From Dysgonomonas sp. ZJ279 (lineage in GTDB: Bacteria; Bacteroidota; Bacteroidia; Bacteroidales; Dysgonomonadaceae): a stretch of 64,000 nt of DNA. The stretch covers positions 1-64,000 of the forward strand of contig NZ_JAAKEL010000017.1 of the NCBI RefSeq assembly GCF_011039205.1, written 5' to 3'. Below, in pieces: positions 1,437 to 11,551 of the stretch. The notes under the pieces are model-generated. The model was not told where the DNA came from, made no database searches, and saw nothing but the letters and a program-made list of their open reading frames with translations. Numbering within the stretch: the first letter of the stretch is position 1; every line of letters starts with the position of its first letter. The translations under genes were made by a program, and so were the position numbers.

Positions 1437-1754
1437 TTAAGTGAAGTAAAAAGTCTTTCCACTTCCTGCGCCGAACTTTTGTTGTTTGATTGTGGTTTTA
1501 AATGGAAAATCAGTTTTTGGAATTTTATCTAAAGCCTCTTTAATCGGTGTAGCATTGGTGAAGAACTTACAATCTATTCCATTCTGTTTGATTTTTACCA
1601 CATACCGACCATCGCCGTGCCTTGTCTTTACTCCCGATTCATAGTCAATAACTTCTATTTCAAAATTTATTACATCTGTTATTGATATCGAAGGGACAGG
1701 GAATATGTTTTTATCATTAAGGGTATTAATCCCAAAGTCGGAGAAGTTCTTCAT
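1437..1754 (-). CDS. 105-residue DGR-linked protein of unknown function
   Basis: The start codon lies inside the end of the reverse transcriptase gene (29-base overlap), so the two genes are probably translationally coupled. The protein is predicted to be mostly beta-strand, with alternating hydrophobic and charged residues (YVVKIKQNG, FKTTIKQQKFG) and a Gly-rich end (GAGSGKTFYFT). That looks more like an OB-fold nucleic-acid-binding protein than the four-helix Avd accessory protein usual in DGRs. Its position makes it a candidate DGR accessory factor that might bind the template RNA or cDNA. The OB-fold idea rests on the pattern only. Confidence 0.6.
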   Translation of the reverse strand: MKNFSDFGINTLNDKNIFPVPSISITDVINFEIEVIDYESGVKTRHGDGRYVVKIKQNGIDCKFFTNATPIKEALDKIPKTDFPFKTTIKQQKFGAGSGKTFYFT

Positions 1755-2724
1755 TTTTAATTATGGTTTTAATAAGGTTTTTAGAATTGCAATGCTTTGC
1801 CCATCCTTTCCAAGAACATACTTGTTTCATGTATTCTTTTGCCTCTACATTCCTCTTATTTAGCTTTGCTACGCGTCTGCAAAAGTTTTTCTTAATCGTT
1901 TTTCTCAACAGAATATGAGAGTGGTAAAAGACATAACCAACAAAATCAATACCTCGTGTTTCAACAGGGAAAATCTGATAATTACTCTTAAGTTCGAGGT
2001 TTAACTTGCTTGTTAGATAATTTCTGATTTCAGATAATAGTTCGTGTAAATTCTCTTTACTATCATTTAGGATAACTATGTCGTCTGCATATCTGTAATA
2101 GTATTTTACGCGCTTTTCTTCTTTCATCCAATGATCAAAATATGAGAGGTATAGATTTGCAAGGAACTGAGAAAGATAATTACCAATAGGAACGCCGGGG
2201 GCTGAATCAATTATACCATCTAACAAGCTAAGAAGCTTTACATCCTTTATTTTCTTTCGGACAATGGCTTTCAATATCTCATGATCAATAGATGGGTAAA
2301 ACTTTCTGACATCCATTTTTAAGCAATACCGAGTAGCCTCCTTGTCTCTTAAATCACGCTTGAGGTCTTTTAAAGCCTTATGTATGCCTCTGCCTTTGAT
2401 GCAAGAGTATGTGTGTGATATTAGTGTCGATGTCCATATATACTCCAACACATTCATAATAGCATGATGTACTACTCTGTCACGAAAGGGCAAACGGTAA
2501 ATAATCCGTTCTTTTGGGTCGTAAATTGTAAATATTTCATATTCGGACGTTTTATAAGTTTCTTCGATTAATTCCTTTTGAATTTGCAGAATATTCTCAC
2601 TTAGATTCTTTTCAAAGTGCAATACACCATAAGAGTTGCGTTTTCCTTGTCTCGCTTTCCTATAAGCTAGGTAAAGATTGTCGAGATCAGATACTTTGTT
2701 GTATAAATTTCCTGTTCGTTTCAT
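1726..2724 (-). CDS. diversity-generating retroelement reverse transcriptase
   Basis: A 332-residue reverse transcriptase of usual DGR length. Motif 3 is at about 137-147 (MDVRKFYPSID). The motif at 177-191 reads PGVPIGNYLSQFLAN, with the IGxxxSQ form typical of DGR enzymes, where group II intron and retron enzymes have QG. The catalytic YADD is at 212-215. There are no maturase or endonuclease domains. DGR enzymes copy the TR RNA with frequent errors at adenines, and the cDNA replaces the VR. Here the TR lies about 100 bases ahead of the start codon, three VR genes lie upstream on the same strand, and a coupled 105-residue gene follows. All key residues are present, so the enzyme should be active. 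Confidence 0.95.
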   Translation of the reverse strand: MKRTGNLYNKVSDLDNLYLAYRKARQGKRNSYGVLHFEKNLSENILQIQKELIEETYKTSEYEIFTIYDPKERIIYRLPFRDRVVHHAIMNVLEYIWTSTLISHTYSCIKGRGIHKALKDLKRDLRDKEATRYCLKMDVRKFYPSIDHEILKAIVRKKIKDVKLLSLLDGIIDSAPGVPIGNYLSQFLANLYLSYFDHWMKEEKRVKYYYRYADDIVILNDSKENLHELLSEIRNYLTSKLNLELKSNYQIFPVETRGIDFVGYVFYHSHILLRKTIKKNFCRRVAKLNKRNVEAKEYMKQVCSWKGWAKHCNSKNLIKTIIKNEELLRLWD

Positions 2725-2931
2725 GCCTTTGCTTTCTTCTCAGCGTTTTCGGTTTCCCTACCAACACCTTCTAAATTGTTATTTTTCACCTAGGGGTGAG
2801 GTTTCTGCCTTTGTTATATTATAAGCATAGTCGAGAACTGGACGCTGCGTTCGCATTCGTATTATCGTAATTCGAATAGTTGAAGGTGAAAGCTGCAGCA
2901 GAGCAATCTCAAAGGCAAACAACCTATATTT
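2725..2931 (-). ncRNA. DGR template RNA region (TR plus spacer)
   Basis: This gap between the VR1 gene and the RT gene holds the TR (2828-2902) and, on the RT side, about 100 bases of spacer. In known DGRs the TR and its spacer form the structured RNA that primes cDNA synthesis. A short stem (CACC 2787-2790 with GGTG 2795-2798, around a CCTAGG palindrome) is visible in the spacer. No convincing gene lies here: the TR reading frame that matches the VRs hits a stop just after the repeat. Confidence 0.75.
2828..2902 (-). repeat. DGR template repeat (TR)
   Basis: This 75-base repeat, read on the minus strand, runs from TCTGCTGCAGC to TTCTCGACTA. Read in the VR frame it carries AAC and AAT codons (AAC, AAT, AAT, AAT, AAC), the typical TR design that lets adenine mutagenesis reach many amino acids. 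It has 20 adenines. Against it, VR1 differs at 14 positions and VR2 at 15, all on adenines; VR3 differs at 16, 15 on adenines. Non-adenine positions are otherwise identical. I compared the four repeats base by base. Confidence 0.95.
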
Positions 2932-3327
2932 TTATCCTATTTGAATCGCTTTCCAAATATCAGGGAACGTTTCGGCGATATAATCAGAGGACGCTTCCGA
3001 TAAAACTCGAAGGCGAGAACCGGACGCCGCGTGCGCAGACGTACGATCGCAATTCGAAGAGTAGAAGGCGAAAGCCGCAGCAGACATAAGAAACCAAGGA
3101 GTCCATTTTCGTTGGTTATAATCATCCCAATCAATCTCGCCAAGCCCATTTTCACGCTCTATCTTTCTAGCTGCTTCTACAATAACAATAGCATTGTATT
3201 CTGCCTCACGATTCTCTCTTAAATCTTCCGGGTAGACAGAGAAGTCTACTTTTGGGCGACTTGTTTCGCTAAATGCTGCCTCTAACGTTGGGATTCTTTC
3301 TTGTAATTGTTCTTTTAAATTTTTCAT
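2932..3327 (-). CDS. DGR target protein 1 (carries VR1)
   Basis: A 131-residue protein with no signal peptide or membrane segment. Residues 1-75 are helical and charged and include PEDLRENREAEYNAIVIVEA, which matches the second target protein (PEDLRPYFKEVYDNVIIVEA). Then comes WTPWF, then VR1 at 82-106 (SAAAFAFYSSNCDRTSAHAASGSRL), then a tail of about 25 residues. The sequence around SGSRL resembles the conserved GSRLCF region of small proteins common in Bacteroidetes phages, so the VR probably sits in an existing fold. It lies directly upstream of the TR and RT. What it binds is unknown. Confidence 0.85.
   Translation of the reverse strand: MKNLKEQLQERIPTLEAAFSETSRPKVDFSVYPEDLRENREAEYNAIVIVEAARKIERENGLGEIDWDDYNQRKWTPWFLMSAAAFAFYSSNCDRTSAHAASGSRLRVLSEASSDYIAETFPDIWKAIQIG
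3010..3084 (-). repeat. DGR variable repeat VR1
   Basis: A 75-base copy of the TR inside target gene 1. It has 14 differences, every one at a TR adenine. Amino-acid changes include TR Asn codons read as Tyr, Arg, Ser and His. Confidence 0.95.
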
Positions 3328-3346: not shown

Positions 3347-3838
3347 TTATAACTCTAACATTTTACGAACTTTATCCTTGAATTGCACACCATAGTGTTT
3401 TGCCAAGTCGCTATTTTTAAGCGAAAGGCGAGAACCGGACGCCGCGCTCGCAGCCGTAAAATCGTAAGCCGAATAGCGGAAGGCGAAAGCCGCAGCAGAG
3501 CCGTTGGTTATAAACCAAGGATAGTAGCGAGCTTTATCGCTATTGTAGATATCCATTTTCTCACCTTCATTAAGAGCCTCTACAATGATTACATTGTCGT
3601 ACACTTCTTTAAAATATGGTCTAAGGTCTTCCGGGACATCATTGAAAGCAGGGGTATGTGGACGACCTGTTTCCCTAAATACATCATCCATTGTATTCAC
3701 ACGATCGCAAACAGATTGAGAAAAGAAATCTTTTCCTAAAGTAGATTCCAAAATTGTTTGTATCTCTTTTGAACCTGTTTTATAAAGTTCCCTTGCTTCT
3801 TTTGTGGCTAATTGTAATGTTACTTTTTCTGTTTTCAT
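3347..3838 (-). CDS. DGR target protein 2 (carries VR2)
   Basis: A 163-residue soluble protein. Its N-terminal part is longer than in target 1, with an extra 30 or so residues. The shared segment is at about 65-110 (DVPEDLRPYFKEVYDNVIIVEALNEG), then YYPWFITNG, VR2 at 114-138 and a 25-residue tail (LAKHYGVQFKDKVRKMLEL) that also resembles target 3 (SGIQFLDLWREY). The start overlaps the stop of the HAD phosphatase gene (ATGA at 3835-3838), so it is in the early operon. Function unknown; a diversified binding protein acting inside the cell or packed in the virion is the reasonable inference. Confidence 0.85.
   Translation of the reverse strand: MKTEKVTLQLATKEARELYKTGSKEIQTILESTLGKDFFSQSVCDRVNTMDDVFRETGRPHTPAFNDVPEDLRPYFKEVYDNVIIVEALNEGEKMDIYNSDKARYYPWFITNGSAAAFAFRYSAYDFTAASAASGSRLSLKNSDLAKHYGVQFKDKVRKMLEL
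3425..3499 (-). repeat. DGR variable repeat VR2
   Basis: A 75-base copy of the TR inside target gene 2 with 15 differences, all at TR adenines. Three Asn codons have two of their bases changed (AAT to GCT twice, AAT to TTT). Confidence 0.95.
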
Positions 3839-4194
3839 TTTTGTAATTCTTTATTTTTGTTGCATACATAACTATAAATTTCCTCCCAAGTAGGCAACCC
3901 TCCCACCTGTCTATCGTCAACATATAAATGAGCATATACTTTACGCGAATTAGTGTTATATTTCGCAAGATTACCGGGCTCATGCTCATTTATACGATCG
4001 AAAGGAATACCACGCGATAAGAGCCAATTAATAGCCTCTGTTAGCTTATCACCGCATCGGCATGTCCATATTATTAAATAGTGACCATCATTACTTAGTT
4101 TCTGCATATAATCAATGGCATAAGGCGCTGGGCTTCCTATATTCGGAAACTCACCAGTGTGGAGAGTTCCGTCAAAATCTACTGCTATAATCAT
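3835..4194 (-). CDS. small HAD-family phosphatase
   Basis: A 119-residue member of the HAD superfamily, cap-less like the small BT0820-type proteins of Bacteroidetes and their phages. The catalytic motif I is at the N-terminus (IIAVDFDGTLH, nucleophile Asp6, acid Asp8). Motif II is near 43-45 (IIWTCR, Thr) and the metal-binding acidic motif near 92-94 (LYVDDR). It probably dephosphorylates a nucleotide or other small phosphate. It follows the XRE gene with a 4-base overlap and is followed, also with overlap, by DGR target 2, so all three are co-translated. Confidence 0.8.
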   Translation of the reverse strand: MIIAVDFDGTLHTGEFPNIGSPAPYAIDYMQKLSNDGHYLIIWTCRCGDKLTEAINWLLSRGIPFDRINEHEPGNLAKYNTNSRKVYAHLYVDDRQVGGLPTWEEIYSYVCNKNKELQK

Positions 4195-4469
4195 AATTCT
4201 CTTAAAATCAATTTTTTCATTTCTTCGGTAGGCTGAACATCTCCTTTTTCGTAACGATGCAAAGCTTGGCGAGTAACAATATTGTCCATTTTATTAGCTA
4301 GATCTTGCAGTGAAAAGCCTCTTATTTTTCTAAGGAATTTCATCTTAGATTTGAAGTCTAGTAATTTTTCTGCTTCAAAAATAACAGTGTCAACCTCTTC
4401 ATTTATTAGCTCTGTCATTTGGTTGACAGAAACCTCTCCCATAACGACCTTTCTTAATAACTCTCTCAT
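4191..4469 (-). CDS. XRE-type helix-turn-helix regulator of the early operon
   Basis: About 92 residues. I prefer the Met at 4469 over the one at 4493 because AAAGAGG lies 7 bases before it. The N-terminal 40 residues are helical. The XRE-type HTH domain fills the second half: KMKFLRKIRGFSLQDLANKM, the recognition region IVTRQALHRYEKGDVQP, then a last helix. The arrangement resembles prophage antitoxin-like or Cro-like regulators, but no toxin gene lies beside it. Its stop overlaps the HAD gene start. Confidence 0.75.
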   Translation of the reverse strand: MRELLRKVVMGEVSVNQMTELINEEVDTVIFEAEKLLDFKSKMKFLRKIRGFSLQDLANKMDNIVTRQALHRYEKGDVQPTEEMKKLILREL

Positions 4470-4504
4470 ATAAACCTCTTTTATTCGTCCCATATCATTT
4501 TTAA

Positions 4505-4951
4505 TTAATCTTTAATTTCATCTGGTGCATGATATGGAAAAACATCCATTATTGGTGTTTCTAATAAAGCGGTGATAGTATAATCAGCAAGTGTGCCGTC
4601 CATACCTTTTTCAACAACAGACAAAGCCTCTTTAATACCCGATGCTTGTGCTAACATTTGCACACCTGTTTTTTTCTCGGTACCACTTTTTTCATCAAGT
4701 GTGATGAAAGAAACTTTTGCTTTGAAAAAACGATCACCAGCATCATTAAAAAACAATTCGCTCAACTTCATTCGGCGAATAGAATCAATAGAAAACTCAC
4801 CTGTTATGTACGGTCTAAGTTCTCCTGTTGCTCTCGCTTCGGCTTCTGTATGAGATAGAGCATCTACTAAGTATGGCTCTGTTACTTTCTTTTGCATGCC
4901 ATTTTCAAGCATTTTATCATAACTAACTTTTACTTCAAACCAATTGTGCAT
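4505..4951 (-). CDS. DUF4494 family phage protein
   Basis: 148 residues, closely resembling DUF4494 proteins of Bacteroidetes phages and mobile elements: an opening MHNWFEVKVSYDKMLENG, a central VTEPYLVDALSHTEAEAR, and an ITLDEKSGTEKK segment before the end. The family has no known activity; its length is normal. It sits between the 50-residue gene and the XRE gene in the early operon. Confidence 0.85.
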   Translation of the reverse strand: MHNWFEVKVSYDKMLENGMQKKVTEPYLVDALSHTEAEARATGELRPYITGEFSIDSIRRMKLSELFFNDAGDRFFKAKVSFITLDEKSGTEKKTGVQMLAQASGIKEALSVVEKGMDGTLADYTITALLETPIMDVFPYHAPDEIKD

Positions 4952-4970
4952 AATTTTAAATTTTAGAATG

Positions 4971-5123
4971 TTATTTATTATTCGTTTCTAACTCTTTATT
5001 TAATTCGTCCGCCTTTTCCTGTGCCTCACTTCTTGTTCTGAATGATTCGACCTTTCGACCTTGAGAATTATAGACGGCATAACTATTCGACCGTCGTTCG
5101 ACTGTATAAACTACATCTGCCAT
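4971..5123 (-). CDS. 50-residue early-operon protein
   Basis: I choose the Met at 5123, one base from the stop of the Gam-like gene (5125), rather than the longer frame starting at 5273 inside that gene. The protein begins MADVVYTVERRSNSYAVYN and reads like a small three-strand, one-helix domain (SQGRKVESFRTRSEAQEKADEL), a pattern seen in small DUF2188-like phage proteins. No function can be assigned. Confidence 0.6.
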   Translation of the reverse strand: MADVVYTVERRSNSYAVYNSQGRKVESFRTRSEAQEKADELNKELETNNK

Positions 5124-5124
5124 A

Positions 5125-5643
5125 TTAAGCCGTCTCCTCAGTTTTTCGTTCAATGTAGAATGTTTCATCTTGCACAACCTCAATACCAACATCCGCCAAT
5201 TTTTCGGCAACTCCTTTTTTTTCACGATCGGCAAGAAGTTTGTCTTTTGCCGGTTCCACAACCTTACGCACATAAGACGGCATTAGCTTTTCCAATAGTT
5301 TGGTAACCGATGGCCAAGTAAAGCCCTTTAATGTTTTTAACTTCGGGGTTCCTGTGCGAAATCCATAAATGCCATGCACCGTTTCTATGCTCTTTTTCTT
5401 TGGAAATAAGGTATCTTTATTCTCGGTTGCATACACTTGTATTGTTTCAAATGCTTTGCTTTTGTCCGCTTCCAACTGAGTAAGATCATCCGCATACTTT
5501 TCGCGTATTTTGGTAAACTGTACGTCCATATCTGCATTTATTTTCACAATGCGAGCGTCGGATGTTGCAAAGTCTGCAAATGCTTGCTCTGCTTGTTCCG
5601 GTGTTACACCGGTGATAACTTGTTTTTTCTCTCTTTTTGCCAT
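5125..5643 (-). CDS. Mu Gam-like host-nuclease inhibitor
   Basis: 172 residues with the layout of Mu Gam family proteins: a long charged coiled-coil at about 10-75 (ARIVKINADMDVQFTKIREK, DLTQLEADKSKAFETIQVYA), then a compact C-terminal domain with the family's GIYGFRTGTPKLKTLKG segment near 90-107. Mu Gam is a Ku-like dimer that coats DNA ends and blocks host exonucleases during transposition. Its place between the 63-residue gene and small early genes fits the Mu early region. Identification rests on this pattern and on context. Confidence 0.85.
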   Translation of the reverse strand: MAKREKKQVITGVTPEQAEQAFADFATSDARIVKINADMDVQFTKIREKYADDLTQLEADKSKAFETIQVYATENKDTLFPKKKSIETVHGIYGFRTGTPKLKTLKGFTWPSVTKLLEKLMPSYVRKVVEPAKDKLLADREKKGVAEKLADVGIEVVQDETFYIERKTEETA

Positions 5644-6963: not shown

Positions 6964-7857
6964 TTAATTATCATGTAATAGTAAAAGAGCATCAGCACGT
7001 CTCAAACCGGTTGTTCGGCCGTTAATTTTCACCATACATTTTTTTACTAATCCATTAAGTTTTGATTTGTTTTTTAGGTTCGGTTCTAAAACATCACGGA
7101 TAAGTTTGTCATAAAATGCTTGTTGCTGTTGTTCGTCTTTAGGTACCGCACTACTATAATTTTCCGACATGCGGGAAAACATTTCGGCGAAATAGTCTCG
7201 GTCGTTTGTTACTCCTTTTTCCATTTTCTCACGGGCGGCGTTTCCTCCTATGAGATACCATGCACACATGCCCTCGGTTCCGTTCCAATATTCTTGTACA
7301 AGTCCGAACGCGTCCTTATCCAACGCACCCCATTCGTCAACAACTACAACCGGATTTTCTAAGGCGTTCAAATAATATTTTGTAGTGTCTTTTATATCGT
7401 CGAATGTTCCTTTGATTGGAACCCCAACAACGCGAGCCAAAGCCTTTATAAATGCATTTTTCTTTTTACATTGAGTTCCATCAACATAAAAAATATTCTT
7501 TTCAGTTTTCGCCATATATTTGGCGGTTGTGGTTTTACCGATTCCGGCATTATCCACAAACATCCGGCTTATAGAATGTTCTTTGCAGAATAAAATTTCC
7601 TCTTTAATTATATCGAAAACGTCCGTTTGAACTATTTTTAGTGTGCGTTTTTTATTGACTACTTGAAACGAACGTCCAAGCATCAAATATTTGGCATCAC
7701 TCAGCAATCCGTCACGTTCTCCTTTTTTCAACCGGCTATAAACGGCCGGGTTAATATCCATTGACAAAGCAAATGCACGGTCGTTGCCTCCAAAATTCAC
7801 ACGTTGCGCAAAAAGGGCATCTAAAACCTTTTGTCTATATCCGTCATTTAGTTCCAT
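6964..7857 (-). CDS. MuB-type transposition ATPase
   Basis: 297 residues. An N-terminal DNA-binding, repressor-like segment (ALSMDINPAVYSRLKKGER, 30-48) is followed by the AAA+ core: Walker A DNAGIGKTTT at 102-111 and Walker B VVVVDEWG at 170-177. This matches MuB-like proteins, which bind target DNA, stimulate the transposase and give target immunity. It follows the transposase gene by 20 bases, the same order as Mu A-B. Confidence 0.9.
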   Translation of the reverse strand: MELNDGYRQKVLDALFAQRVNFGGNDRAFALSMDINPAVYSRLKKGERDGLLSDAKYLMLGRSFQVVNKKRTLKIVQTDVFDIIKEEILFCKEHSISRMFVDNAGIGKTTTAKYMAKTEKNIFYVDGTQCKKKNAFIKALARVVGVPIKGTFDDIKDTTKYYLNALENPVVVVDEWGALDKDAFGLVQEYWNGTEGMCAWYLIGGNAAREKMEKGVTNDRDYFAEMFSRMSENYSSAVPKDEQQQQAFYDKLIRDVLEPNLKNKSKLNGLVKKCMVKINGRTTGLRRADALLLLHDN

Positions 7858-7877: not shown

Positions 7878-9932
7878 TTAATATCTATCTTTTAAAGAGC
7901 GTTTAAATGAAGTTTGAGTAACGTTTAAAACAAGGTCGCTTTCCTCGGTTATGTCCTCCAATACCTTGGCTCGTTCGTTTATGATTGTCGTCGGTTGATA
8001 CAAACCGGGCATAACAAATGAATTGCCAATTGTAACCGGGCGATTATCTATAATTGTTACATTATCTAGTTGCTTTTTTTGTCCGCGTCCGAATGCTTCA
8101 ATAGTCGAAACATATTTGCTCATTAACTCGCGGTTTATCATGTCCTCGTCGGTTTGTTCTATGCGGGCTTTGTTGTAGCGTGGTTTTTCGACGGCCTCAC
8201 AAATAAACTGATTTCCAATATAAATATGAGCCTTTAACACGTTACCGAAATTGTCATCAAGCCAGTAAATATCCACATCTCGGTTTTCGCATTGCTCCAT
8301 AATATTTACAAGGCGATTGCCAACGGCAATAACGCCATCCATACCAAGTAAAAATTCAGTATTACGAAAACGGATAATTCCGGCATGTACCGACGTTGCT
8401 GTTTTTTCTCCGAGATATGGCAATATGCCGTGATAGTTGATAGGGCGAGTATTTGGGTTTTGCATAGCAATAAATACATCCCAACGGCTCATGCCTTTTA
8501 TTTTCGAGTGCTCCGAATTATTCCATGTTTCAATGTCGCGCAAACAACCCGCAACAATCTCATCGTATGGTATTATGGTTTTTTCTCCGGGTCCTGCTTG
8601 GTTTGCTTCACTTAGCGCGAACGGGCGGGCCAGCCAACCGGTGCGTTTCTTTTCATACTTGTATCTTAGAGGCCTGTAATATTGCTCTATACGTTTTCCG
8701 CGCGCGTTATTTGCTTCTATGCGCACATACTGAAACATATTACCCTCTTTTAAGAAAGTATCTTTGAAACTCGCGTTAAGGTTTGACTCGCCCTCCAGTT
8801 CCGCCGGGAGATTAAGCCCCCATTGTGCATAATTGCGTACCATTTGTCTATAAAACTCTGTGATAATACCTGCCTTTGATTTCCCATACACCCAGCAAGT
8901 AAAAGCTTCACTCCCTAGATCAATACCATTATAAAACCACATGCGAGTTTGTGGGGCATACTCAAATACCGGTTGACGGTCATCAATAGATATAATAGAA
9001 CCGGCAAATTCGGGTTGATTGAGTGAGTGATAAGGCTTGAACCTCGCCATATACTTTTGACGGTCACCGCTTCTTTTCGCGTGTGTACCTATCTCGTTAC
9101 TCCATTTTGTTAAGTAGTTGCGTATGGTACCCTCGCTTATATCCTTAAATTCTTTAGGGTTGTAAAGTTCGCCGGTTGCATTGTTTATTATTTCAACATA
9201 GCCATCAAGAAAACCGCCATATAATCCGGCCACCTCGGCTACCGTTGGTTTTGTATCCATACCCGAAAACACATTATTAAGTAATTGTTCGGTTGTATCA
9301 AATACTTTGCGTGCGTTGGCATTTTTATGTTTTTTCGATATAATTTCTGAATAACCGTTCTTTTTATATTTTCCGTAAAGTTTGCGGAGGTATTGCTCAT
9401 TCTCTGGGAGAGAGTGACCCGATTCAAGTTTGAAACGATTCGATTCATTTGTAATTATACTCCAAATGTCACGAACCCCATGTCCCATTTCTTTACGTAA
9501 TTTATAGCGCATACCATAGATTCGATCGATAGTGTTAAGAGTAGAGGCATTAAGTGTATATTCAGAAACCTTGTTATTATCTAGGCTTGTGTCGTCGGAA
9601 AAGCGGAACATAGAATAAAAATCAAATGCCGCCATATCCCGAACATAATTTTTTTCGAATAATGTTTGTTGAATTAACTTTGGCGGATTGCCCCACATTC
9701 TCACTATTGCTTCTTGCCATTTTGATGGCAAAGTATCAAATTGAACAAGCATCGGTGTATTTATTGCTGTAACTCGCAATCTTATAACTTGCTCGCGATC
9801 AACTTTCATTTGAAGACCTCGCTCACCAATCAAACATAAACTTTCAGAATGTGCATTTTTGCCACTAAAAATAGCGCGACCTTGTACGCCTAACTTTCCG
9901 TTGCAATATTCGTAAGGATTATATTTTTGCAT
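7878..9932 (-). CDS. MuA-type DDE transposase
   Basis: 684 residues, close to MuA length. N-terminal DNA-binding domains occupy about 1-300, including a helical segment at 180-290. The integrase-like core starts near 305 with the first catalytic Asp in ISIDDRQ (317/318). The catalytic Glu is probably 416 in NARGKRIEQYY. Where the second Asp is expected (LPAELEGESNLNASF, 375-389) I see only Glu, so this acidic residue is E380 or E382. A C-terminal beta-barrel and basic tail (TQTSFKRSLKDRY) would contact MuB. It carries out strand transfer of phage ends in integration and replicative transposition. Confidence 0.92.
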   Translation of the reverse strand: MQKYNPYEYCNGKLGVQGRAIFSGKNAHSESLCLIGERGLQMKVDREQVIRLRVTAINTPMLVQFDTLPSKWQEAIVRMWGNPPKLIQQTLFEKNYVRDMAAFDFYSMFRFSDDTSLDNNKVSEYTLNASTLNTIDRIYGMRYKLRKEMGHGVRDIWSIITNESNRFKLESGHSLPENEQYLRKLYGKYKKNGYSEIISKKHKNANARKVFDTTEQLLNNVFSGMDTKPTVAEVAGLYGGFLDGYVEIINNATGELYNPKEFKDISEGTIRNYLTKWSNEIGTHAKRSGDRQKYMARFKPYHSLNQPEFAGSIISIDDRQPVFEYAPQTRMWFYNGIDLGSEAFTCWVYGKSKAGIITEFYRQMVRNYAQWGLNLPAELEGESNLNASFKDTFLKEGNMFQYVRIEANNARGKRIEQYYRPLRYKYEKKRTGWLARPFALSEANQAGPGEKTIIPYDEIVAGCLRDIETWNNSEHSKIKGMSRWDVFIAMQNPNTRPINYHGILPYLGEKTATSVHAGIIRFRNTEFLLGMDGVIAVGNRLVNIMEQCENRDVDIYWLDDNFGNVLKAHIYIGNQFICEAVEKPRYNKARIEQTDEDMINRELMSKYVSTIEAFGRGQKKQLDNVTIIDNRPVTIGNSFVMPGLYQPTTIINERAKVLEDITEESDLVLNVTQTSFKRSLKDRY

Positions 9933-10019: not shown

Positions 10020-10403
10020 TTATGATATGTACTCTCTCCAAAGGTCTAGGAACTGAATGCCTGAATAGTCAGAGATATCGCTTTCGTGGTAAGCAAAACG
10101 AGAACCGGACGCCGCGGACGCATCCGTAGAACCGTAATACGAATAGCGGAAGGCGAAAGCCGCAGCAGAGCCGTTGGTTCTGAAGTAAGGATAATAGCGA
10201 GGCTCTCTGTTGTGGATGTCAATCTCTTTGCCTTCATTTAATGCTTTAGTGATAGATTCTAGCATACGACCTACAATCTCTTTTCGTGTGAATCCCAATC
10301 TTGTTAACTCCTCTTCATTGAGCGGCTGAGTTTTGTTATACACACATGAGTCTTCGTACGTCTTAATTTGATCTGTGATGTTCTTTACTTTTTTAGTTGC
10401 CAT
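10020..10403 (-). CDS. DGR target protein 3 (carries VR3), early operon
   Basis: A 127-residue soluble protein built like targets 1 and 2: a helical N-terminus (1-65), ALNEGKEIDIHNREPRYYPYF, then VR3 at 79-103 (GSAAAFAFRYSYYGSTDASAASGSRF region) and a tail ending SGIQFLDLWREYIS. It starts 4 bases after the 56-residue membrane protein gene and is followed by the transposase gene. It is thus the third gene transcribed after prophage induction and lies 7 kb from the TR. No signal peptide. Function unknown. Confidence 0.85.
   Translation of the reverse strand: MATKKVKNITDQIKTYEDSCVYNKTQPLNEEELTRLGFTRKEIVGRMLESITKALNEGKEIDIHNREPRYYPYFRTNGSAAAFAFRYSYYGSTDASAASGSRFAYHESDISDYSGIQFLDLWREYIS
10095..10169 (-). 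repeat. DGR variable repeat VR3 (remote)
   Basis: A 75-base copy of the TR inside target gene 3. Fifteen differences fall on TR adenines and one, in the last codon (CTA against TTT), on a C. The non-adenine change lies at the edge, where homing may not reach. Confidence 0.93.
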
Positions 10404-10407
10404 AATT

Positions 10408-10578
10408 TTACTTTTTTTGAATGTTACTATATACTGTGTCTTTAACCATGCAATCCGATTGAGCTTGTCTGTCTTCTATTAGGTTCGTTTGCTCCAAGTG
10501 TGAAGCCAAAGCAAAAAGAGCCAGCATTATTATCATTGCGATGATTGCTTTAACCTTTTCATTGAGTTTTATTTTCAT
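10408..10578 (-). CDS. 56-residue small membrane protein
   Basis: A short gene whose start overlaps the stop of the upstream HTH gene (ATGA, 10575-10578). It encodes a basic N-terminus, one hydrophobic segment (AIIAMIIMLALFALASHL, about 11-28) and a charged tail (TNLIEDRQAQSDCMVKDTVY). It resembles a single-pass inner-membrane protein with its C-terminus outside. Such early phage proteins may act in superinfection exclusion, but nothing here shows this. Confidence 0.6.
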   Translation of the reverse strand: MKIKLNEKVKAIIAMIIMLALFALASHLEQTNLIEDRQAQSDCMVKDTVYSNIQKK

Positions 10579-10778
10579 AGGGTTACTTTTGTTTCGCGAT
10601 TAATAATTTCCAGCATATCAATTGCATCTGTTAGAATTTTAGCCGCAAGTACAGAGTTGCGTGCCCTATCTCCTACTAATATTTTAGTCACGTAATCCGC
10701 TGAACAATTATGTTTGCGAGCAATTGTGGCTATTTTTAAATCGCGTAGTTCATTCGTTGTAAACTTTTTTGTCTGCAT
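10575..10778 (-). CDS. Cro/Ner-like small HTH protein, first early gene
   Basis: 67 residues with one helix-turn-helix (IATIARKHNCSADYVTKILVGDRAR, about 17-41) and a final amphipathic helix. It is the first leftward gene, divergent from the repressor across a 113-base control region, the place of Ner in Mu and Cro in lambda. It probably represses repressor transcription or tunes the early promoter. Confidence 0.7.
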   Translation of the reverse strand: MQTKKFTTNELRDLKIATIARKHNCSADYVTKILVGDRARNSVLAAKILTDAIDMLEIINRETKVTL

Positions 10779-10891: not shown

Positions 10892-11551
10892 ATGTCAAAA
10901 GGTATTGGCTTGAGAATAAAGGAGTTGAGAGAGGTTAATAAACTGACTCAAACTGAATTTTCTGAAAGAATTGGTATAAAACAGGCTAATTTATCACATA
11001 TTGAAAATAAAGGAGAGAAAATATCAGTTGATATCATTAGTCGAATTATATCTAATTTCAATATCAATATTGAGTGGTTGTTTACTGGAAAGGGTGTGAT
11101 GTCAAAAACGAACATTGATAATTCGTCACAAACATTAAGAAATAAAGAGATTGCTAATGAAGAAACACGCCCTCGCATCCCAATGGACGCGGCGGCTGGG
11201 TCATTAACGGTTTCCTCCGATGGTATAACTATGAATAATTGCGAGCAACTCCCGGTTATTCGCGCTTTTCCTCGATACGATTTTACAATATTTGCACGGG
11301 GTGAGAGTATGGACCCGGAATACCATTCCGGTGATGAGCTTGCATGTATTTATATAAGAAATACAAGTTTTATCCAATGGGGCCGTATTCACGTAATAGA
11401 CACGGCACAAGGTATATTGGTAAAACGCATATTTGATGGTGGGGATTCTATTATATGTAAATCTGACAATTTAGACTATCCCGACTTTCGTATTCACAAA
11501 TCAGAGTTTTATAATGTAGCACTTGTTATTGGTATGATTAGGCGCTATTGA
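10892..11551 (+). CDS. prophage repressor, XRE HTH plus LexA-like S24 domain
   Basis: 219 residues. The XRE DNA-binding domain is at 3-65 (LRIKELREVNKLTQTEFSER). A linker leads to an Ala-Gly self-cleavage site at about 96-97 (DAAAGS). The S24 serine peptidase domain carries the nucleophile in ARGESMDPE (Ser about 139) and the Lys in ILVKRIF (about 177). By analogy with lambda CI and LexA, RecA-stimulated cleavage would release the early operon after DNA damage. It is the only rightward gene at this end and should hold the lysogenic state. Complete and of normal length. Confidence 0.92.
   Translation: MSKGIGLRIKELREVNKLTQTEFSERIGIKQANLSHIENKGEKISVDIISRIISNFNINIEWLFTGKGVMSKTNIDNSSQTLRNKEIANEETRPRIPMDAAAGSLTVSSDGITMNNCEQLPVIRAFPRYDFTIFARGESMDPEYHSGDELACIYIRNTSFIQWGRIHVIDTAQGILVKRIFDGGDSIICKSDNLDYPDFRIHKSEFYNVALVIGMIRRY

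Follow-up and report, generated by a model that had tools for sequence, protein, structure and literature searches.

Diversity-generating retroelements (DGRs) are commonly regarded as makers of surface and tail lectins. Here we ask what such an element does in Dysgonomonas sp. ZJ279, where the diversified genes are small and share an operon with the transposition genes of a Mu-like prophage. The locus lies in a stretch of 64,000 nucleotides, which was analyzed as a whole and is referred to below as the window. A preliminary description, made from the letters of the window alone, had proposed a complete DGR in one strand and one operon of an early prophage region, with small soluble proteins as its targets.

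In a DGR, the reverse transcriptase (RT) copies the RNA of a template repeat (TR) with errors at adenines, and the resulting cDNA takes the place of the corresponding stretch, the variable repeat (VR), in a target gene. The parts found in the window are as follows:

2827 to 2904, minus strand: TR (core 2828-2902; adenine-only differences reach 2827-2904)
3010 to 3084, minus strand: VR1, 14 of 14 differences at TR adenines
3424 to 3501, minus strand: VR2, 15 of 15 differences at TR adenines
10098 to 10171, minus strand: VR3, 14 of 14 differences at TR adenines
1726 to 2724, minus strand: DGR reverse transcriptase, 332 aa, with IGNYLSQ and YADD motifs (PF00078, E 2.9e-20; phrog_1423)

The differences between the TR and the VRs were recomputed over the longest stretches free of a non-adenine mismatch. 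The earlier counts for VR1 and VR2 were reproduced; for VR3, the adenine bias stands, and the earlier count of 15 of 16 is obtained if the alignment runs a few bases beyond the first non-adenine mismatch. Hypergeometric probabilities of the adenine bias are 7e-11, 4e-12 and 3e-11 for VR1, VR2 and VR3, respectively. We also searched the whole genome of the strain with a 72-base TR pattern in which all adenines were replaced by N and up to three mismatches were allowed. Four sites were found, namely the TR and the three VRs, with no mismatch in the TR, VR2 and VR3 and one in VR1; the reversed pattern, searched as a control throughout the same genome, had no site. Chance repeats are thus ruled out, as the preliminary description had expected. 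The same adenine-wild search of the assembly returned no further VR, in a tail gene or otherwise, so that a missed tail target elsewhere in the genome is ruled out as far as the assembly goes. Translated in the frame of the VRs, the TR reads SAAAFTFNYSNYDNTNANAASSSRL, with many AAY codons, and each VR ends about 26 codons before the end (stop included) of the frame of an open target gene.

The frame of the RT is open, in agreement with the earlier claim of an intact enzyme, and its product is 36.5% identical to the RT of phage BPP-1 (E 6e-54). Another class of RT (retron, DRT or group II) was considered and rejected: such matches exist, but all six listed NCBIfam RT models are below their cut-offs, and the strongest match anywhere is phrog_1423. 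PADLOC, applied to ten proteins of the window, gave cross-matches only for the RT and one HTH protein. With mismatches restricted to adenines within the matched stretches, a DGR-type RT adjoining the TR, and VRs near the 3' ends of open target genes, a complete DGR is present on the minus strand, and we hold this to be practically certain.

The genes around the DGR belong to an operon that runs from 10778 to about 483 on a single strand, opposite a repressor gene:

10892 to 11551, plus strand: divergent CI-like repressor (domain matches to HTH and Peptidase_S24)
10575 to 10778, minus strand: small HTH protein in the Ner/Cro position, first gene of the operon (weak HTH matches, E 0.04-0.06)
10020 to 10403, minus strand: VR3 target gene, 127 aa, before the MuA-like gene
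7878 to 9932, minus strand: MuA-like transposase (phrog_310, E 4.7e-29)
6964 to 7857, minus strand: MuB-like AAA ATPase (phrog_296, E 1.3e-21)
5125 to 5643, minus strand: Mu Gam-like protein (PF07352, E 2.8e-31)
4505 to 4951, minus strand: DUF4494 protein (domain match), a recurrent neighbor of this DGR type
3347 to 3838, minus strand: VR2 target gene, 163 aa, its start overlapping the upstream gene by 4 nt
2932 to 3327, minus strand: VR1 target gene, 131 aa (open frame, family match)

Read along the minus strand, the order is small HTH gene, 56-aa frame, VR3 gene, MuA-like, MuB-like and ATPase genes, two small frames, Gam-like gene, short frame, DUF4494, HTH and HAD-like genes, VR2 gene, VR1 gene, TR, an RT-17-like RNA, RT, and a 105-aa frame. 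Junctions are shorter than 25 nt in 14 of 18 cases, four of them being 4-nt overlaps; the four wider junctions measure 87, 207 (this one contains the TR and the RNA element), 150 and 117 nt. The VR3 gene is the third gene of the operon downstream of the divergent repressor, and all DGR parts are on the same strand as the transposition genes, which bears out the early-operon position given in the preliminary description. This is how a Mu-like early operon under the control of a repressor is laid out, and the gene order suggests early expression.

The assignment to a Mu-like prophage holds as well, given the MuA-, MuB- and Gam-like genes in the window and Mu-type portal and F genes elsewhere in the same genome. 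The first base of the window is the first base of its contig (C8), and the late half of the prophage therefore lies outside the window. Mu-type portal and F genes are present in two sets, one on contig C10 and the other on C21, and the C10 set presumably belongs to the window prophage. At least the first 127 bases of C8 are identical to the start of C21, a short motif is common to the start of C10, and further along C10 there are late genes arranged much as in hankyphage. C8 and C10 would be separated by a repeat, which is perhaps an insertion sequence. The window prophage appears to be cut by this repeat near the window start, so that this copy may no longer complete the lytic cycle. The set at about 13000-14800 of C21 is a second one, apparently of another Mu-like prophage.

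The three targets of 131, 163 and 127 aa are paralogues, and are homologous also to PHROG 11581, a group of unknown function. Searches of Pfam, NCBIfam, PADLOC and PHROG yielded nothing useful as a named function for them; it should be noted that PADLOC covers defense, not counter-defense. The family pattern consists of an IKTFEDAC region, a second helix, a KYxPWF motif, the VR, GSRLCF, and two C-terminal helices. AlphaFold2 models of the VR3 protein (mean pLDDT 84.3) and of a Muricauda-type relative (mean pLDDT 85.2) have the same helical frame, with the VR at low confidence in both. Neither model contains a beta strand of at least three residues, the VR itself being of low pLDDT, and a C-type lectin fold of the targets is not supported by these predictions, although the VR may still adopt one, since it is the part modeled with low confidence and in three phages described below it draws on the TR that also serves a late or tail target. 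A Foldseek comparison of both models with the PDB gave no match with E below 1, nor did a second look with VIA-align, made for the model of the VR3 protein, find a PDB match. Among predicted viral structures there were nine matches with E below 1, all to uncharacterized phage proteins, some of them from crAss-like phages. A hydrophobic N-terminus (first 40 residues) was found in none of the 85 non-redundant small proteins of the family, and a moderately hydrophobic inner stretch in two of them; with lengths of 127-163 aa, the targets are thus small and soluble, as had been proposed.

Two further elements of the cassette accompany the RT:

2728 to 2803, minus strand: RT-17-like structured RNA (RF03020) between TR and RT, 40.0 bits against a gathering score of 40.4, E 7.7e-5
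1437 to 1754, minus strand: 105-aa protein (phrog_19665), overlapping the RT end by 29 nt, candidate DGR accessory protein

The window copy of the RNA is just below the Rfam threshold, and RT-17 exceeds it at 9 of the 20 other loci searched. The element is probably the 3' spacer of the template RNA; the spacing between TR and RT is 90-132 nt (median 100) at 79 loci. In hankyphage, an RT-3 element, not RT-17, directly follows the TR, and members of both Rfam families resemble the 3' portion of a DGR template RNA. A protein related to the 105-aa product comes directly after the RT in 58 of the 95 loci with room for it; in hankyphage the two are fused, with the related protein at the end of the RT frame. 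The protein has no similarity to Avd and no match to a named family in the searches made.

Is this arrangement peculiar to one prophage? Searches with the RT led to 103 loci (L002-L104), made up of 80 viral ones, the best 80 of 202, and 23 from genomes; L002 appears to be the window's own element. A scan for repeat pairs differing at adenines only found a TR/VR pair at 92 of these 103 loci. As checked with a profile of the small family, the VR lies in a member of it at 79 loci and only in other targets at 13, and at 11 no VR was found; these counts include near-identical contigs and the window copy. The other targets measure 379-879 aa (one of the 13 loci also has a 132-aa frame), and three large targets match the small-family profile, only within its VR part. 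With C or T as the wild base, the scan of the 103 loci gave no pairs; with G, one or two pairs were obtained in about 25 loci, which may be VR copies read as templates, A to G being the commonest change. Over 108 unique small-target pairs, 66% of the TR adenines are changed (1596/2433), 890 of them to G; the rate at other bases, 55/6368, is partly built in, because the scan admits one non-adenine mismatch per segment.

At least one of the early markers MuA, MuB, ATPase and DUF4494 was matched in 30 of the 79 small-target loci, and none in the remaining 49, which are short or of other kinds. Where matched, MuA (15/15) and DUF4494 (24/24) are always upstream and on the same strand, and portal/F genes are downstream on the opposite strand in 9 of 10 loci. 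The order in Mu-like relatives is repressor, transposition genes, DGR, and then head genes on the other strand. Target types are clustered on the RT tree, with 3 label changes compared to a mean of 12.0 after shuffling, and at least two of these changes are forced by well-supported branches. The tree has 66 rows, with six loci with in-frame stops, three partial RTs, and identical and near-identical rows left out; the branches of hankyphage and of a few other rows are very long, and we give them no interpretation. The RT matches with a stop in the translated interval are those of L040, L044, L052, L054, L055 and L096; programmed frameshifts have been proposed for the RT of Quimbyvirus, as described in PMC8008677. 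The protein family occurs in 12 of 101 genomes of the host family and in 4 of 395 across the phylum, the genome studied here being included in both counts. Judging from these sequences, the architecture of the window is widespread rather than a one-off.

Two loci of unusual structure were seen in addition. In L175 (about 3900-5300), target genes are arranged in tandem, apparently together with two copies of the TR. L174 (5900-6990), a relative in the same family, has kept a TR and two VRs along with part of the 105-aa gene, but the 14 kb available for it yielded no RT, and it represents a natural case of RT loss.

The family is not confined to Mu-like phages. In L066, an integrase phage, the order is integrase, repressor, regulator and then the DGR, with a head protease about 8 kb beyond the DGR and a lysin-like gene past the integrase on the other side. 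In each of BT-TP2, LoVEphage and Versailles, one TR supplies both the VR of the family gene and a VR in a late or tail gene. The TR of LoVEphage serves a tail gene (its VR was found in five of six records, within the stretches fetched) and also a family member of 194 aa, which is encoded on the opposite strand at a distance of 16 kb. The latter matches the window-family profile on both sides of the VR (E 6.4e-28) and is surrounded by replication and anti-restriction genes; methyltransferases, a tRNA ligase and a Lar-like gene for restriction alleviation are nearby. In BT-TP2, one TR serves a giant late gene and a family member, which likewise matches the profile on both sides of the VR and follows a small HTH gene opposite a Cro/C1-type regulator; one further weak pair, with 6 adenine differences, is on the other strand. 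The distance from the TR to the early VR is 40 kb along this record and 4.6 kb across its ends, where a terminal repeat is present. The Versailles gene (L188, 10181-10762) lies between NinB and a replisome organizer, 43 kb from the TR along the record and 15 kb across the record's ends, and its VR differs from the TR at 15 adenines and at 5 other positions near the ends. Such small genes are easily overlooked: the label is "tail protein" in Versailles, probably carried over from the VR, and "hypothetical" in LoVEphage, and the gene is unannotated in BT-TP2. Hankyphage was considered as a further small-target case and rejected, as its genome has no member of the small family and one VR only, in a giant late gene.

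Differences between closely related records bear on the activity of these elements. Six LoVEphage-type records have an identical 122-base TR. Pairwise comparison of their six small genes gave 0 to 20 VR differences in each of 15 pairs, all at TR adenines, and the remaining 92 bases of the VR never differ; the pairs are not independent, and two of the six genes are identical. For example, OY731433 and MW660583 differ at 20 positions of the VR and at none of the other 463 bases of the 585-base gene. Among 55 near-copy pairs of RT-relative loci, 33 are without a substitution, 19 have VR differences and 3 differ only outside the VR. Summed over the 19 pairs, which are not independent and include two of large-target loci, the differences number 228 at TR adenines and 20 elsewhere in the VR. 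Two pairs of loci with two small targets each have 6 (L030/L031) and 9 (L061/L062) VR differences, all at adenine sites, and none elsewhere in about 2.4 kb. These comparisons of records show that small targets of relatives, as distinct from those of the window copy, have been diversified in nature.

We consider it likely that the targets are early and non-structural. With respect to their function, we tentatively prefer, at somewhat less than an even chance, the explanation that the small targets are intracellular binders evolved by the DGR for counter-defense or host takeover. They would be made early, or upon derepression, and would act inside the cell. Each would consist of a small helical scaffold with one hypervariable loop of about 25 residues just before the two C-terminal helices; with one such loop per scaffold, the phage population would carry many binding surfaces, and selection would retain the fitting ones. 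The likeliest ligands would be intracellular proteins of the host, or of rival mobile elements, that vary from host to host, and paralogues would cover several ligands at once. In favor of intracellular binders we count the recurrence of the family, its early position, the targets outside the cassette, the adenine-only variation in relatives, the lack of a hydrophobic N-terminus, the anti-restriction genes close to the LoVEphage target, and the reading of the Quimbyvirus equivalent as belonging to a defense-related island (PMC8008677). Against them we count that PADLOC has no match for the window targets, that the VR loop is modeled with low confidence, that the prophage is seemingly cut, that two of the 85 family proteins have a moderately hydrophobic inner stretch, and that hankyphage lacks the family, so that small targets are not needed by every such phage. 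A bolder version, according to which temperate phages of Bacteroidota run an intracellular antibody-like system, with early cytoplasmic binders on a non-lectin helical scaffold neutralizing defense or regulatory proteins of each new host, and with this as the sole job of the DGR in some Mu-like phages, seems to us rather doubtful.

The best-surviving alternative is that the proteins are encoded early and act outside the cell, as decoration or adhesin subunits that are released or join the virion and are diversified for their binding surfaces, like tail targets. We regard this as unlikely. The TR that is shared by a late or tail gene and a small gene in BT-TP2, LoVEphage and Versailles agrees with it, since the same loop chemistry works in both, and so do the three large targets that resemble the small family in the VR part only. 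However, an N-terminal hydrophobic segment is found in 0 of 85 family proteins, and the genes sit in early or replication modules, that of LoVEphage on the strand opposite the tail operon.

A role in lysogeny or superinfection, in which the targets recognize proteins or repressors of incoming phages and diversification tunes exclusion or immunity type, would account for the place of the VR3 gene, behind the small HTH gene and two genes past the divergent repressor, and for the similar place of the BT-TP2 gene. The VR1 and VR2 genes, however, are downstream of the transposition genes, and the Mu early operon is off in the lysogen. The same is expected of the operon in the window: silencing of the hankyphage repressor raised most phage genes, as reported in PMC12135933. 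We consider this role unlikely as well.

Finally, that the DGR of the window prophage is a silent relic and its targets are neutral passengers is very improbable, even though the prophage is probably interrupted and L174 keeps a TR and two VRs with no RT detected in 14 kb, because the RT and all three target frames are open and the VRs have 0, 0 and 1 non-adenine mismatches over the 72-base pattern, indicating little drift.

The recurrence of an apparently cytoplasmic target family in the early modules of several unrelated phage types, sometimes at a distance from the cassette, implies that targeted hypermutation may also serve phages within the cell. Since Bacteroides phages that carry the family have been isolated or induced, this is directly testable.

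Among known systems, the window DGR resembles that of the Bordetella phage BPP-1 in its related RT, and the BPP-1 element likewise makes an adenine-directed transfer from TR to VR. It differs in that BPP-1 has a single target, the tail-tip protein Mtd (PMC10743442). Tentaclin-type phage DGRs, described in the same source, are similar in having two different target genes per DGR; these, however, encode proteins of 569 and 579 aa that carry C-lec and Ig domains at the N-terminus, compared to 127-163 aa in the window, and membership of our targets in this type is ruled out by size and layout. A distant second target is also known from Bacuni phages, where PMC8143477 describes it as a fimbrial-tip-like protein. 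Hankyphage p00 (PMC6199706, PMC12135933) is close in several respects: a Mu-like Bacteroides phage with a Mu-like early region, a DGR that includes an RT, and a protein related to the 105-aa one. In contrast to the window, its DGR follows the tail genes, the only VR found lies within a giant late gene, and the RNA element belongs to RT-3. Repressor silencing raised DGR activity in this phage as well (PMC12135933), which makes it a useful experimental model.

A survey of DGR targets, PMC8144416, distinguishes 24 target clusters, with phage targets that are mostly tail structures and with annotated VR folds that are systematically C-type lectin. In the main texts of the open-access literature searched, we found no description of an architecture with small targets only, and the 24 clusters of PMC8144416 may well include the family. 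For LoVEphage, PMC8525569 points to the tail collar gene that lies upstream of the RT. The nearest precedent is Quimbyvirus, for which PMC8008677 describes a non-structural second DGR target, reads it as part of a defense-related island and suggests a part in phage-host conflict. This target is opposite the tail genes and near methyltransferases and a tRNA ligase, and the LoVEphage family gene has the same setting. From gene content, we infer that LoVEphage and Quimbyvirus form one group; through this inferred identity, the LoVEphage homologue, which lies outside the structural module, links the window family to a non-structural target of the Quimbyvirus kind. Quimbyvirus differs in that it also diversifies a protein of the tail module (PMC8008677), whereas only small early targets, three paralogues in a Mu-like phage, were found in the window. 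With the present results, the single case of Quimbyvirus is joined by a whole protein family, present in several phage types, and by elements that show no tail target.
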